Below are positions 38,721 through 47,223 of a stretch of DNA of 64,000 nt, piece by piece. The translations under genes and the position numbers were made by a program. The DNA is taken from positions 620,001 through 684,000 of the forward strand of contig NW_020289977.1 in assembly GCF_003144245.1 (NCBI RefSeq). Reading direction: 5' to 3'. The notes under the pieces are model-generated. The model was not told where the DNA came from, did no database searches, and saw nothing but the letters and a program-made list of their open reading frames with translations. The DNA is from Jaminaea rosea (lineage: Eukaryota; Basidiomycota; Exobasidiomycetes; Microstromatales). Each line of letters begins with the position of its first letter. The stretch's first letter is position 1.

Positions 38721-41700
38721 ATGACAGACATCGGTCAGCTCTCGTCTCTACTGGAGAAGACGCTTGACACCAATCCGACGAATCGAGCTGGAGCTGAGCA
38801 GCAGCTTACGAGCCTATCAACGTCGAACCCTTCTCACATTTCGACGTTGCTCCAGATCATTGCGGCTGCAGAATCACCCATTCCCATTCGATTGGCAGCA
38901 GCGATCCATCTCAAGAACATCATTCGCTCAAGATGGGATGCCGATGATGCGCACGACGCAGGGCTGCCAGTTGTAGACGAAGGAGCCAAGGCTGCGCTGC
39001 GAGAGAATCTTCTTCCCCTCCTACTGTCGCTCTCTCACCTCAACAGCCCTGCGCCGCTCCCGCTGCGACTACAGCTCAACACATCGCTTTCCCTTGTAGC
39101 ATCACATGACTTTCCACGCCTCTGGACTGGCCTCTTGGACGATATCATCAGCAATGTAGCTTCGCCGAACGCAGACCTCGGCGTCGTCCAGGCTTGCTTC
39201 TCAACGCTGCATGAGGTGACAAAGAGCTGGAGAGGCCAGTTCAGGAGCGACAAGCTCTACGAGGAAATCAATTTTGTCCTGGGCAAGTTCGCGCCCCTTT
39301 GGTGGACTGGCATACAGGTGAGCAATTCGGAGAGCTGACAACTCTAATGACGATGGGCAGGCTAACTTTTAAAACATCGTATATGCAGGCCACTCATCAA
39401 GCTCTGCTCGACCCATCGACACCTGCTTCACAATTTGCGCCTCTGCTCAGCATCCTGCATACCTACATACTCCTCTTCTACGACCTCTCATGCCAGGACT
39501 TGCCGCCTCTCTTTGAAGACAACATCGCTCCCATCTCCGAGCTTCTCCTCCACTGGCTGTCATATACACCAGAATCGTCGCGCCTCCCACCCAATGACGA
39601 TGACGACAAGCCAGACGAGCTTACCAAAGTTCGCGCAGCAGTCTGCGAGGCCGCCGAGCTGTATGCACAGCGCTATCTCGACGCGTGGGAGCCGCAGGTG
39701 GCGGGCTTCGTCCAGGCGGTGTGGGAGATGCTGGGCAAGCTAGAGGGCAAGACGGGTGGAAAGTACGATGGCTTGCTGTCAAAAGCGCTCAGCTTTTTGA
39801 GCGTCATTGTACGACAGCCATCACTTCGGCACCTCTTCTCATCAGCAGAGGGAGGAGCTGGTGTGATGGAGTCCCTGGTGCAGCGCGTCATCCTGCCCAA
39901 TGTTGGCATGAAGGAGAGCGAAGAGTGAGTACGAAGGCGAGAATAGCAGATGCCTCGAAGCCATCTACTGACCAAGCTCCTTCCTCGCTCTTGCAGGGAA
40001 ATGTTCGAGGACGAGCCGCTTGCATGGGTCAAGCGCGAGGTTGAGGGAAGCACAGAGACGGACACTCCACGCCTCTCATCACTAGCGTTCCTGCGCTCTC
40101 TCCTCGAGCACTTCACGCAAGAGATCACCGGCATCATCTCAAGATACATTCAGACGTATCTTGAACAGTACACCGCCAACCCCCCGACCGAGTGGCGCAA
40201 AAAGGACGCAGCCATCTGGCTCATGACGGGCGTTGCGGCCAAGGGCTCCACTGGCCGACACGGCGTCTCGCAGGCATCTACGAACAGCCTCGTTGACGTG
40301 GTCGACTTCTTCTCCAATCACATTTTTGCCGATCTGCAAGCATCAGAGGGCAGCGTCAATCCTATCCTCAAGGTTGATGCTATCCGTTACCTACACACTT
40401 TCAGGAATCAGCTCACAAAAGAGCAGCTCCTCAGCGTCCTCCCTCTCCTCGTCCACCACCTGCAGAGCGACAATGTTGGTATCGCGACCTACGCCTCCAT
40501 CGCTGTCGAAAGCATCCTCGTCATCCGCGGCCCGAACAACTCTATGCTGTTCACACCGGAAGATGTCCAAACCTTCGCTGAGCCCACGCTCCTCGCCCTC
40601 TTCGGGAAGATCGAGGCTGGCGAGACGCCAGAGAAGGTCGCAGAGAACGAATTTTACATGAAAGGAGTCATGCGCGTCTTGACCACAGGACGTGAGCAGG
40701 TAGCAAGCAAGGTCCACTCGGTGCTCCTTGACCACCTCGCCAAGATCATCAGCATCATCGCCAAGAATCCTTCAAATCCACGCTTCTCCCAATTCGCTTT
40801 CGAGTCGGTGGCTGCGCTTGTGCGATACGCACTCGCGGCCGACCCGGCAAGCATTGCGCGATTCGAGGAGCTGCTCTTTCCCCCCTTTACAGCCATCCTT
40901 CAGCAGGAGGTAGCCGAATTTGTCCCTTTCGTCTTCCAGCTCCTCTCACAGCTGCTGGAAGCCCGCCAATCGCAGGATGGGCAGCTTCCAGCGTCGTACC
41001 AGAGCTTGCTGCCGTCACTGCTCACTCCGACGCTCTGGCAGTCAAGAGGCAATGTGCCCGCTCTCGTGCGCCTGATGCAGGCCTACCTCACCAAGGCGTC
41101 AGCGGCCATGGTGGCCAACAACCAGATCTCGCCCGTATTGGGCATCTACCAGCAGCTCATTGCGAGCAGGATCAACGATGAATTCGGCTTTGAGCTGATG
41201 CAAACCGTCTTCGAGACCGTCGACGAATCGGCATTGCAGCCCTTCAAGTCAGCAGTCATGACCCTCATGCTCACCCGTCTGCAAAACTCCCGCACGGACA
41301 AGTTCGTGCGCGGTTTTGTTGGCTTTGTGGCCTCCCTCGCCCTCATCAGGCGCAAAGGCAATACCTACCCCGAAGCCACCTTCCAAGCATTCGACTCTGT
41401 CCAGCCCGGCCTATTCACTCAGCTCGTGCAAGGTATCATCGCGGCAGAGGTGCCTAAGACGACCGCTCGACGCAAGCCCCTCGTGGTCGTCGGACTCGGT
41501 CGCCTCCTCACCGAGTCGCCCTCTATGCTTACTTCCGAAGCCCTCGCCCCTGTCTGGGCACCGCTACTGGGCGCCCTCGTCACCCTCTCCCGTGACTCGT
41601 CCATCGCAGCTAAGAGCATTGAAGCCCAACAAGCCGAGGCTGACGAGGTGTACGCGGAAGAATGGGAGGAGCAGAACACTTTCCAGGCTGGCTTCTCCAA

Positions 41701-41929
41701 GCTGGCAGCAAGTGCACCGAGAGGCACGGAGGCGAGGGACGTCGTTGCTGTCAGGGAGGTGATGGGAGCAGACTCCGGGAAGGATGTGGGGGAGTGGCTT
41801 GTTGAGCAGGTCGTCAAGGCGAGTCAAAGGCAGCCGGGCAGATTGCAGGGTTTGCTGGCGGGTATGGACCCGAAGGCGGGTCAGGCAATGCAGGCGATGC
41901 TGGCGCAGAAGGGCCTGAATATCGCGTAG
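38721..41929 (+). CDS. CSE1: Exportin-2 / importin-alpha re-exporter Cse1
   Basis: Three exons, 38721-39317, 39389-39924 and 39997-41929 (introns 71 and 72 nt), give 1021 residues, close to yeast Cse1 and human CAS (~960-970). Cse1 with RanGTP returns importin-alpha to the cytoplasm. The HEAT-repeat superhelix is recognisable: AAAIHLKNIIRSRW near the importin-beta N-terminal region, YDLSCQDLPPLFEDNIAP, the splice ESEE-MFEDEPLAWVKREVEGS, RKKDAAIWLMTGVAAKG, VDAIRYLHTFRNQLTKEQLL, AKNPSNPRFSQFAFESVAAL, PFVFQLLSQLLE and WQSRGNVPALVRLMQAYL. These blocks align along the whole length with CAS. A second possible acceptor for intron 1 (GGGCAG ending at 39360) would leave a 43-nt intron and break the frame. 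Confidence 0.96.
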
Positions 41930-42015: not shown

Positions 42016-45000
42016 TCATTCCCCCTCTTTCTGCTTGTGACCCTTTCCCTCCCCCTCTCCACCCTCGCGCTGCTCTCTCTTCTTTCTCGTGTTTCTTTCA
42101 ACTCTAGCTCTCCTTGCCTCCTTCGCAATCATCAGCATCTCTGGGCTGAAGACCATCCGCGACCGGGCCTCTTCCCGCCTCCACGCCTCGCTTATAACCT
42201 GTTGTCGCTGCTTCACGACGTCCAACCAGATCTTCGGGGGATCGGTCCGTGTCTCGCCCTGGCCGCTCGCCCGTAATTGGGCCATGATCCTGTCCTCCTC
42301 CAACAACATACCCACCTCCTCGTTCAGCTCGCGCAACCTCTCCTGCCGGGCAATGCGTCTCAGCCGGCGGGCTTTGATCGTCATGGTGATGCGAATGGGC
42401 TGGCGCGGCTTGAAGCGCAGGAGGGGAACGTTGTAGTATGACGGGGGGATGAGTGAGCCGGAGGGGAGAGGTCGAGGTCCGCGAGGGGCACAGGCTGCTG
42501 GTGGTGGGCGCACCTTGCGCATCTGACTGCGGGACTTGAGGCGGGCTGAATGCTGGCAATGCTCCTTGCGGATGCGGACAAGAAGGCGGGAAAACTGCTC
42601 GCGACTTGGCGTCTCTTCTTGCGAATCATTGGCATCCTCGCGGCACAGAGCAAGGAGCTCCCTAGCTTCTGTCACAAGTGCTCTTGCTGCAAATACGGAT
42701 CGCTTGACGTACTTGCCGCGCTTGAAGCGGATGCGAAGCCACTGCCTGACCATATCGGCATTCCCGGTCGACGCGAACCTAAGAGGCAGTTGCTGAAGGA
42801 GACCACGGTAGAGGGTCCAAAGCACCTCGAACTTCCCCTCTCGAGTGGCGTAGAAGGGCGATGGAGAGCGCACGGTGCGTGGCATCGAGGCGATAAGGTC
42901 GTCGATGCTAGCGGCTGGTATGCTGTACGGCGCAGCTGCGCTGGATGGGCTGTGGGTTGAGAAGGCGGCTGATGAGCCACTAGCTCGACGGCGCTCAGCC
43001 GCAGAAGGCGACGTCGGTAGGCCAGTGGCTGAGCGAGGCGTGCGTGCGCTCTTGCCCGCAGACCCGGAGGCCCATCGCTTTGTTCTCGAAGCAGGTTCGG
43101 GAGGCGAAAGTGCCTTGGCCCGTCTCTCCAGAGCCCGAATCTCATGGATGTCGTCTGACGCCTGCGCCTGCAAGTACAAGATACCTCGGTCGCCAAGACT
43201 GCGGTGCTTCTGATCCGAAGGCTGATAAGGAGGGTGAACCGCCCTTCGGTGCGGCTTCGACGTCGTCTCGTTGTTGGATGCCACCTCCTCCATCGCCCTC
43301 CCATCACGATGGAGGGATCCCCCATTCGTCTTTGCCAGGATCTGATGAATATCGAGTGCCTCGCCCGTCGGTACCGGCTCCGTCTGACTGGGTGTCACGC
43401 ACGGATCGTCCACCTCCTTTCTCAGCACCTTATCCAAGTCCACCTGCGCGAACCACGCCACCCCCTCGGGCAACCCCTCCATCTCCAGCTTGAAAGCAAA
43501 CATGGCTCTCGTCCACAAATTTGCAATCTGGAGCGCCAATGCGGCGCGATGCGCGTCCTCTTCACGGGCGAGGTAGCGCACCTCGTCGTGCACGCTGAGC
43601 ATGAAGCGGGCGGAGATGTCGTAGATGCGACACAGGTGGTCCATGCTTGTTATGAGGAGATGCAGGTAGTCTACCCCGCTTGATTGAACAACCCAGTTGA
43701 TGCGGGACGGCATGAAGTCACCGCCGCCACCGCCTAGGTCGGAGCCATTGCCATTACCGTTGCCATTGACATTGGTTTGGCCGTTGCGCCCGCGATGACC
43801 CTGCGACTTGGGCAAGAACTTGCGAGATAAGGCCGCAGTGATCCCGCAGTCGAGCGCAGGCGTCCGAGGATGCTCGCTCAGCGCAACATCTTCCAGCTTG
43901 TTGAACACAAATGACTCTGTGCCGCCGAACCAGAATTTACGACCGAAGTACTCGGGCGAATGCGTGTTTGTTCCTTTTGTCGAGGCGTACAGCTCCTTTG
44001 CCAGTCGGGTAGCCTCTTCACCAGGCATCGCCGGGTTGGCTTTGAGCAGCAGCTGCGTTGCATGTCTGATTCCCGCACCGTAGATGCGCGAGTAGTTGAA
44101 GACCTTGGCTTGATTCCGGCTCGTGCCGAGGATGCTTGCTGTCTTGCTGTGAAGGTCCGTACCAGCTGACTTGGTGCCTTCCAACGTCATCCAGCCAATG
44201 GCAGTGGCGCCGTGCACGCCAAATTGGGCATCACCCATCACTGAGCAGATCCAGAGTTCTTCAGAGTCCACATCTGCGCCGACGATGACCCATCCTGGGG
44301 GTGCCTTGACCATCGACTTGAGCTCGGAGCCCACGCGGTTCTTCTTCGCATTCGAGGCAGTGAGCCACGTCTTCTCGATTGCTCGGCGGGTGATCGTGCC
44401 CATCGTGACTACCTGTGGTAGGATGAGACCTTTGCGCCGCGTCTTCTCCTTCTCGCCACGCCGCATACCGCTGGCACCTAGACCGAATTCCATCTTCGAC
44501 CCGCCTTCGCCATCCCACACAACCATCTGATTTGCCACACGATCTCGCACGCCAATCCAGTAGCTGCACTGTGCATTGAGATCGAGGGCATCGCGTGCGG
44601 CGCGTTTGCCTAGCTCTTCAGGGTGCTCACTGCGCAGGGTTCCGTCTTCGAAAAAGGCCATGAAGCTCTTGCTGAAGGGACTGCCCACATTCGAGTCCTC
44701 GCCGGCCGTGTGTGGGACCTTGTAGAAGAGACTGGGCGAGTTGAAGTTCTCTGACGCCGCCTTGAGCGCTTCATCCGCTTCGTGGGTGAAGATGAGCGGC
44801 TTCTGCCGTGTGCTGAAGGCTTCTTGCTCGTGCGGGCGATGCATGTAAATCCAGCCATGCTCTCTGCTATGGAAGAGAGGGCATTGCCGCCAAGATACCT
44901 TGAGCAGGAGCGGGGCAATCCGGGTGCGAATCGTAAGTTCCAGCTGGCCGGTCGCTGACTTGTACAGATCCCAGTACCAACGGGGCCACGTCTCCGAAGA

Positions 45001-47223
45001 GGAATCAGGATCGATCTCTTCTGGCGGGCTGACGGGGGACCAGTCTAGGCCATCCATGCGTTGTGCGAGGGTCGCATCCTCTTGCGAGCGAGCGTAGACG
45101 AGCTCTGCTGCGTGTCGCAGCTTGTCTGCGATGTCCTCCTTGCTGGACTTTGAGCGCACGGCGTCGAGAACCGCTTGACCCTCCTCGCCCAAGTCCGAAA
45201 CCACCTCCTTGCCGGTAGCAGACGAGAGAAAGCCTTTGCTGGTCGGCATAGCGCTCAGCTGCTCCGTGCCAGCCATCCACTTCCCTTCTTCGCTCTGCGA
45301 GATACGCTCGCCATGGAGCGAAAGCATGAGAACGAATGGCGTGATCTTCTGAGCCGTCGAGGGTGCGCGTGCGCCGAGGACGTACTCGCGGTACCACTTC
45401 GGCACAGTCTCGACCTCTTCTCCGTCACAGCCCGGCTTAGGCTTCTTGGGCTTTTTCGGTGACCAATCGAGTTGGGAGAGCCAAGGGTCCACCTTCCACC
45501 ACTCGGGCTCGGCTTCGGCACGCCTCTTGTGCTCCTCTCGTAGCTCTTCGGCGAGCGAGATCAAAGCTTGACGCACTCCCTTGAGGGCATCCTCGTATTT
45601 GACGTCGCATCGTTGCTGGTACTCGAGCCATTCGTCATCGACGGGCAGGATGGGGCTGCCGAGGCCAAGCACGCCAGCAAAGGTGGCTGGATGAGGGCAA
45701 GTCTCTCTGAAAGCTGGGAGGACCTTGGCGAAGACGGCGTGCGTGGCGGAGACATCACGAGCACAATAGGAGAGGAGCGTGTCGAGCTCGTCGAGGATGC
45801 CTTGACGGGACGTGCCATCAACGAAGTGATTGCGCAGATCTTTTGGCAGGTGGATGCCACAGTGAAGGGCGGCAACTTCTGCAAGAGAATTCGTCGAGCT
45901 GATGTCTTGCCATTGCAAGCCATGTCGAGGGTCTGAGTCGCCATCATCGCTCATGCCGTCCTCATCAATGCTCGGCGTGGGGGACGGCGCGATGCGATCA
46001 GTCAAGGCGTCGAGATCGAGGCCCATCGAGACAAGCTCCGCGATCTCAGCGTCTTCGAGTCTCTCCCCGCCTAGCAGCTTGAGTACCTCTTGCCTCTGTT
46101 CATCACGCAGCTCCTGATCCAAGAGCAGCTTCTCTGCCTGTTTCTTTGCTCGGTTTCTTCGATATTGTATCCAAGCGGGTCGCTGCGGCGAGGAGATGCC
46201 GCGTACGGCGATGTGCAATGATTGGGTATCCATGAAGCGGGTCTTGCTGAGGGAGAGGCTGTACTCTTCGCGAATACGAGCGCGGTCGTAGCCTACATTG
46301 TGGCCAACGAGAAGGCGTGAGGTGCCCGTAGCAGGGTCGCCGAAGGGAATTAGGTGATCTTTGCGATCTGACTCGCCCATCAGCCAGGGGCTCAGCCATG
46401 CGTACCAGGCGTTGGGTCCGGCAGCTGTGGCCATGACTGGAAAGGGGCTTTCTGCAACCATGGTCTCGACATCGAAGACGAGGGCGGCATCATTGACGTC
46501 GGGATAGTCGACTGGCTGACCTTCGCCCAGTGTCGTCGCGTTGCCATCGCTGGATCGTAGCACTGGGTACTTAACCCAGCCAGAGACTCTGAGCCAATGC
46601 GGGTGTCGCGGCTCCATCATGGTGCGAAGCTGCGAGTCCATGCCGATCCATTGCAAAGGTGAGGGCCTTGCATCATCAAGTTGATGTTCTGCGTCTTGCG
46701 AAGAGGGCGGCGGCAAGAGTTTGGCTGAGGCTAGCTCTTCGGACAAGCCAAGCCAGGGCTGAGCTGCGTCTCGACCAATGGTCCAGAAGTGCTCGCCGAG
46801 GTCCTTGCCCTGAAGAGGCGGCAGGCGAAAGTCTGTAGAGGGGAGGATGGATGCTTGCGAAGGGGAGAGGCCATGATTGTGCAAATGCGCCTGGGAGAGG
46901 GAAATCGCATGTGGATGGAGTGGCGGCGTCCGCGCAGCTCCTGGAGGGAATACCTGTCGAGAGAATGAAGGGCAAAGAAGCTGGACACCAAGTGGATTGC
47001 GAGGGGCTACAAGCAGGCGAAGATGAGCTGATGATGACGACGATCATGATGATAATCCGTGGTTGCGCAGCAGCAACTCACCTTGGGAAGCTTTGGCCGT
47101 GTCATCATAAGTCATCGACGAAGATGCGACGGTGGCCTGGCATCGCCGCCATATGGTAGGAGGTCCAATGTATTGATGGCATCGTATCGACCCTTGACGC
47201 CGTACGAGAGCAGCATGTATCAT
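42016..47223 (-). CDS. MIP1: Mitochondrial DNA polymerase gamma fused to an LYR-type domain
   Basis: Two exons, 47223-47082 and 47027-42016 (intron 54 nt), give 1717 residues. ATG 47223 starts a presequence (MIHAALVRRQGSIRCHQYIG) and the splice leads to RNPLGVQLLCPSFSRQVFPP, the usual start of the gamma family. The exonuclease motifs are present: VFDVETM (about 231), VGHNVGYDRARIREEY and YCARDVSATHAVF. So are polymerase motifs A (VGADVDSEELWICSV, about 968), B (NQAKVFNYSRIYGAG) and C (SVHDEV, about 1190). The conserved part ends near residue 1284 (GEALDIHQIL). Without any stop the frame runs through a 160-residue Ser/Ala/Arg-rich linker into VLWTLYRGLLQQLP (about 1449), an LYR/Cup1-like helical domain, then SLIPPSYYNVPLLRFKPRQP and a Lys/Arg/Glu tail. 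Polymerase identity is certain; the LYR reading is by motif only. Confidence 0.93.

Follow-up and report, generated by a model that had tools for sequence, protein, structure and literature searches.

The window analysed here, 64,000 nucleotides of the Jaminaea rosea genome, carries on its minus strand (42016..47223) a gene in which DNA polymerase gamma is followed by an LYR-type domain, and this locus raises the question of whether the two parts form a single gene and, if so, whether they act as one protein or as two. Polymerase gamma, its fungal extension, the LYR domain, a conserved block and a tail lie in one frame, and this arrangement is conserved in several lineages. We propose, with a probability of roughly 0.57, that the product of this gene is a mitochondrial tandem precursor, cut after import into the polymerase and a basic LYR protein. 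The window is part of contig C3 of a 16.6-Mb assembly of 21 contigs, which are the genome in all searches below. A homologue search in which 7988 candidates were scored yielded at least 23 proteins (P0001-P0023) and does not fix the outer limit of the fusion's range; among the matches listed, 15 of the 23 (P0002-P0016) hold both the LYR core and the block and, together with the window protein, make up the 16 fused sequences compared here.

The gene starts with an ATG at 47223, ends with a TGA stop at 42016-42018 and yields 1710 residues once spliced. Exon 1 (47082..47223; this and all other features of the gene are on the minus strand) encodes an Arg-rich N-terminus whose composition suggests a probable import presequence. 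The uninterrupted frame described in the first-pass annotation holds from the intron onwards, where the frame is open through to the stop. Upstream it does not: codon 60 of the unspliced frame is a TGA, which a 75-nt intron (GTGAGT...TGTAG, 47007..47081) takes out, restoring the frame with the exon junction SQ/APRNPLGVQ in the form present in P0002, P0007 and P0012. Beyond GEALDIHQIL (43336-43365) the frame runs for 439 residues, in line with the approximately 430 claimed earlier; from base composition alone, the probability of such a stop-free run is ~9e-7, and the 15 other proteins align with this region in the same frame.

By its domains, the window gene is a DNA polymerase gamma (family A). 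The exonuclease and polymerase parts, which had been reported as intact, both exceed the curated Pfam cut-offs, with 281.9 bits for PF18136 (cut-off 26.7) and 47.6 bits for PF00476 (cut-off 34.3). The best stretch of the 3'-5' exonuclease domain is 45709..46611 (E 6.3e-84), with exonuclease motifs at 46459-46476, 46282-46305 and 45751-45768, and the region of the polymerase A, B and C motifs (VGADVDSEE, RNQAKVFNYSRIYGAG, LSVHDEVRY) is 43573..44283 (E 1.5e-12). All 14 PDB matches at E 0.001 are polymerases gamma, and in the genome no DNA_pol_A locus other than the window gene was found. The first-pass annotation placed the usual end of the family at GEALDIHQIL, which proved too early: some 70 further residues (SLHRDGRAM...LQAQASDDIHEIRALERRA) are conserved and can still be recognised in P0019 and P0020, both without an LYR part. 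This piece (SLHRDGRAM...LQAQASDDIHEIRALERRAKAL, 43108..43317), with a mean pairwise identity of 0.55 among the fused sequences, is the ordinary polymerase extension of these fungi. It is followed, in this order, by a linker, the LYR domain, a 34-residue block and a basic tail, and the elements VLWTLYRGLLQQLP, WLRIRFKRGKYVKRSVFAAR and the SLIPPSYYNVPLLRFKPRQP block are present as originally described.

The linker (42961..43107) is a variable, presequence-like segment rich in Ser, Ala and Arg, which ends at a putative cut, AAF↓STHS (42961/42960). It is hardly alignable among the 16 sequences (mean pairwise identity 0.19), and the segment between the fungal extension and the LYR motif ranges from 71 to 159 residues. 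Nevertheless, a [FYM][SACH]T motif recurs in 14 of the 16 linkers (2000 shuffles: mean 1.9, maximum 6), and the other two have VRHSSTS (P0010) and VRYSSTS (P0012) at the same place. In most of the 16, the 40 residues upstream of a site chosen by hand have a basic, acid-poor composition relative to the polymerase body (median fraction 0.007). The published site of the mitochondrial processing peptidase is RX(F/Y/I/L)↓(S/A)(S/T), and this peptidase is reported to cut yeast Arg5,6 internally (PMC8847149). The combination of a fast-changing, presequence-like linker with a recurrent motif resembling a processing site points to a cut tandem precursor, of the kind described in reviews for Rsm22-Cox11 and Arg5,6. 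In P0008 and P0014 there is no Met between the fungal extension and the LYR motif, which disfavours independent translation of the LYR part in these proteins.

Under the proposed mechanism, the N-terminal presequence would import the whole chain, the Arg/Ser/Ala linker would serve as an internal presequence, and the processing peptidase, together with Icp55, would cut near (R)x(F/Y)↓(S/A)T, releasing the polymerase (~1396 residues) and a basic LYR protein (~314 residues, net charge ~+29). More tentatively, the latter might bind acylated acyl carrier protein (ACP) and serve matrix assembly, perhaps mitoribosome biogenesis, a role suggested by the presence of MIEF1-MP among the nearest characterised relatives and by the strongly basic product. 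The fusion would then couple the supply of the LYR factor to that of the replicase of mitochondrial DNA (mtDNA).

Several observations weigh against this proposal. The motif found in 14 of 16 linkers was defined after the sequences had been seen, and the shuffles ignore relatedness. Only 5 of the 16 linkers contain the strict consensus R-x-[FYIL]-[SA]-[ST], a count attained by 0.75% of shuffles (mean 1.4, maximum 6), and 8 contain a looser form that includes Arg; the window linker itself, AAF↓STHS, fits neither. Three sequences, P0004, P0008 and P0015, carry 4-5 acidic residues ahead of the site and differ little from the polymerase body (fractions 0.21, 0.09 and 0.16), and the unsettled subfamily of the LYR domain makes the mitoribosomal target a guess.

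The alternative that survives best, which we nevertheless consider doubtful, is that the LYR domain remains joined to the polymerase and works in cis, with bound acyl-ACP positioning or regulating the replicase, so that mtDNA synthesis is coupled to mitochondrial fatty-acid synthesis. The covalent linkage is kept across several lineages, the window has no full processing consensus and, in yeast, the extensions of Mip1 affect the balance between polymerase and exonuclease (PMC3303844). However, a spacer of such variable length, barely alignable, presequence-like and bearing a recurrent motif of the F/Y-S-T type is hard to reconcile with action in cis; the mitochondrial tandems Rsm22-Cox11 and Arg5,6 are cut, according to reviews, and the yeast extension is described as dispensable for mtDNA maintenance in its variable distal part of 175 residues (PMC3303844). 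The ACP-sensing module acting on the polymerase, as envisaged in the first-pass annotation, is therefore not our preferred reading, the LYR domain being set apart by this linker.

Less likely still, in our view, is a more far-reaching proposal, namely that the polymerase keeps its LYR domain, wholly or in part, that acylated ACP gates mtDNA replication directly, and that LYR together with the SGSLLxPTxxNxPLPRxKPVQP block constitutes a thirteenth LYRM subfamily surviving only as a polymerase fusion.

The block (SGSLIPPSYYNVPLLRFKPRQPIRITMTIKARR, 42364..42462) comprises 34 residues with the majority form SGSLLxPTxxNxPLPRxKPVQPxxITMMIxxRR and is better conserved than the LYR core (mean pairwise identity 0.54 vs 0.32); it had no match among Pfam families or solved structures. 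Within the extension, only the polymerase's own C-terminal region is more strongly conserved. The charged basic tail that follows (42019..42363) is mostly helical and variable (0.22). Across the 16 sequences, the predicted free LYR product has a net charge of +19 to +42, which would fit an RNA-associated matrix protein.

P0001, the deposited protein of J. rosea, is identical to the window protein except that it lacks two stretches, 22 residues in the polymerase and ~121 residues including the LYR core, and it might be asked whether alternative splicing of an in-frame intron over this core yields a polymerase-only isoform beside the fusion, making the LYR output splicing-regulated. The model of P0017 (Tilletia horrida) also skips the core in frame, and both models keep the flanks. 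We consider this improbable: the two models omit different pieces, 15 other models keep the core, and the omitted stretch in J. rosea (42618..42980, 363 nt), which we take as coding, has no stop, would have to be read as an intron with a GTGGCT donor and an AAG acceptor, and encodes a sequence conserved in relatives. Its G+C content by codon position (0.59/0.54/0.64, against 0.63/0.46/0.68 in the polymerase) is coding-like at the third position, with a weaker periodicity. We regard both omissions as probable mis-predictions; a regulated isoform may lie behind them.

The identity of the LYR domain follows from the family rather than from the window sequence, which alone had no Pfam LYR match. 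The first-pass annotation had set a profile search without an LYR match as evidence against itself; for the single sequence this search turned out negative, whereas 10 of the 16 family members match Complex1_LYR (PF05347; E up to 10), the best at E 4e-6. In whole-protein scans all PF05347 scores are under the cut-off (best 24.0 vs 24.8 bits; P0014 was not in the scan), and P0005, P0008, P0011, P0013 and P0016 gave no PF05347 row in these scans. The core (VLWTLYR... to LALCRED, 42634..42825), delimited by profile, motif and structural alignment, is the three-helix core typical of LYRM proteins and aligns structurally to ISD11. Despite a mean pairwise identity of 0.32, W..YR is invariant with a downstream F: Y and R are present in all 16 sequences, L in 13 (V or I in P0004, P0005 and P0006) and F84 in 15, P0005 being the exception. 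A family profile compared with solved structures matches ISD11 best, followed by MIEF1-MP, and the profile alignment scores (MIEF1-MP 69%, LYRM4 48%, SDHAF3-like 42%, NDUFA6-like 33%) are too close to separate subfamilies. Taken together, the family profile, motif, structural alignment and conservation support the assignment of the C-terminal part to the LYR family, and thus the earlier claim that polymerase gamma and an LYR domain share one frame. A chance resemblance of a basic helical extension is very unlikely, given that motif, profile and structural alignment converge on one stretch of 60-75 residues and that, of the nine solved structures matching the profile best, seven are named LYR proteins, the other two ('Predicted gene, 55359') aligning over the same stretch. 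Least credible of all is a merger of two separate genes by annotation or chance read-through, because, although basidiomycete models do join neighbours (P0020, polymerase gamma plus HAT1, is a case in point), the window DNA is open in one frame over both parts and 15 other proteins show the identical order of parts, two of them with no Met in between.

The first-pass annotation suggested comparing MIP1 in other Ustilaginomycotina, and the same fusion does recur, in Microstromatales, Tilletiales and further lineages. The named carriers are Parajaminaea, Sympodiomycopsis, Microstroma and three Tilletia species; those looked up fall in Microstromatales, the order of J. rosea, and Tilletiales, two orders of Exobasidiomycetes. 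Among the carriers, P0014 and P0015 have a shortened tail and P0010 lacks its N-terminus; six proteins (P0018-P0023) have no LYR core, and P0018 stops just after the fungal extension. A tree of 23 polymerases, those of the window and of P0002-P0023, unites all carriers, P0017 and P0018 in one group of 18 (support 100/99); this group comprises five sub-lineages with carriers in each, and the tree does not resolve the branching among them. One old fusion would be the simplest reading. Ustilago and Malassezia are not among the named matches listed from the 7988 candidates scored, which is no proof that they lack the fusion. No stand-alone homologue was detected with the extension alone (E 10) or with alignment A1 (E 1) among the ~7990 candidates sharing most words, weak evidence given that many of these words are of low complexity. 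A second copy of the LYR block was not found in the J. rosea genome, where the one other weak match (E 0.03) has an internal stop.

Two proteins outside this group deserve separate mention. P0019 (1335 residues), a polymerase gamma without LYR that groups with Termitomyces, ends ...AYGRFSTATTWPRYHPVTFER, where an FST motif occupies the corresponding position; the fusion may continue there past an intron and be older than Exobasidiomycetes. The model of P0020 (1770 residues, Termitomyces) joins polymerase gamma to the histone acetyltransferase HAT1 (PF10394, PF21184) and is probably a merged annotation.

A second candidate tandem is encoded elsewhere in the genome, at L003:583-1773 (G000:C16, match 275087-275281). 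Its 396-residue frame consists of a DUF498 domain (E 4.4e-25), which we take to be NDUFAF3-like, a linker TRSFSTSTRPRF and an LYR domain that narrowly exceeds the Pfam cut-off (25.2 vs 24.8 bits), and the joint TRSF↓STSTRPRF fits the strict processing site. The presence of two LYR proteins behind other mitochondrial proteins, with similar joints, makes a habit of tandem precursors more likely. Further LYR-type loci were detected (L001, L002, L004-L007), some with matches below the Pfam cut-off; presumably they represent the Cup1-like, SDHAF3-like, NDUFA6-like, LYRM5-like, NDUFB9-like and MZM1-like subfamilies. The Cup1-like frame (PF20263) is a separate locus, L001. A genome search with PF13232 gave nothing above its cut-off, the human LYRM4 segment matched only the SDHAF3-like locus, weakly, and yeast Isd11 gave a short weak match (C17:333852-333965, 42% identity, E 0.02) not readable as a gene; the genome's ISD11 may be separate from the polymerase gamma extension. 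The PP-binding profile has 17 matches in the genome. In the window itself, a 659-residue frame on the plus strand (39950-41929), presumably the C-terminus of a CSE1 exportin, is convergent with the polymerase gene and ends 86 bases from its stop.

At this locus, one message joins the only mtDNA replicase found in the genome to a protein of the family that reads acyl-ACP status. If the product is cut, it would offer a new natural tandem precursor in which to study internal processing by the mitochondrial processing peptidase, and the fusion partner would be a clue to the matrix process that these fungi tie to mtDNA replication. If it is not cut, it would be the first case of its kind, for we know of no other replicase with an ACP-binding regulator. 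In the literature searched on LYR fusions, Mip1, mitochondrial tandem precursors and Jaminaea rosea we found no polymerase gamma-LYR fusion, with a prior listing possible in the supplementary fusion list of a 2024 LYRM survey (PMC11293456), and the available part of the Metarhizium Mip1 paper makes no mention of LYR (PMC11205540).

Like LYRM4/ISD11 and MIEF1-MP, the window domain has the Y-R pair with a downstream F and a three-helix core, with similarity in profile and fold; unlike these small free proteins, it forms the C-terminus of a DNA polymerase and is accompanied by a conserved block and a long basic tail. LYRM fusions as such exist, and fusion may coordinate expression, according to reviews (PMC4381221, PMC12375894). 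Those in Table 2 of Angerer (2015) likewise link LYR domains with other proteins, each fusion occurring in a single species or a small group; none of the nine involves a DNA polymerase, and all are called unreviewed predictions there (PMC4381221). Yeast Mip1 also carries a fungal extension after the polymerase core, the proximal part of which is comparable in place; BLAST with the Mip1 extension reportedly matched no known protein (PMC3303844), whereas the distal part in the window gene is an LYR domain. Finally, S. pombe Rsm22-Cox11 and yeast Arg5,6 join other partners and are cut after import according to reviews (for Rsm22-Cox11, PMC4381221, PMC12375894), whereas cleavage of the window gene product is predicted from its sequence; in common with it, they comprise two mitochondrial proteins per precursor and contain internal targeting-like segments.

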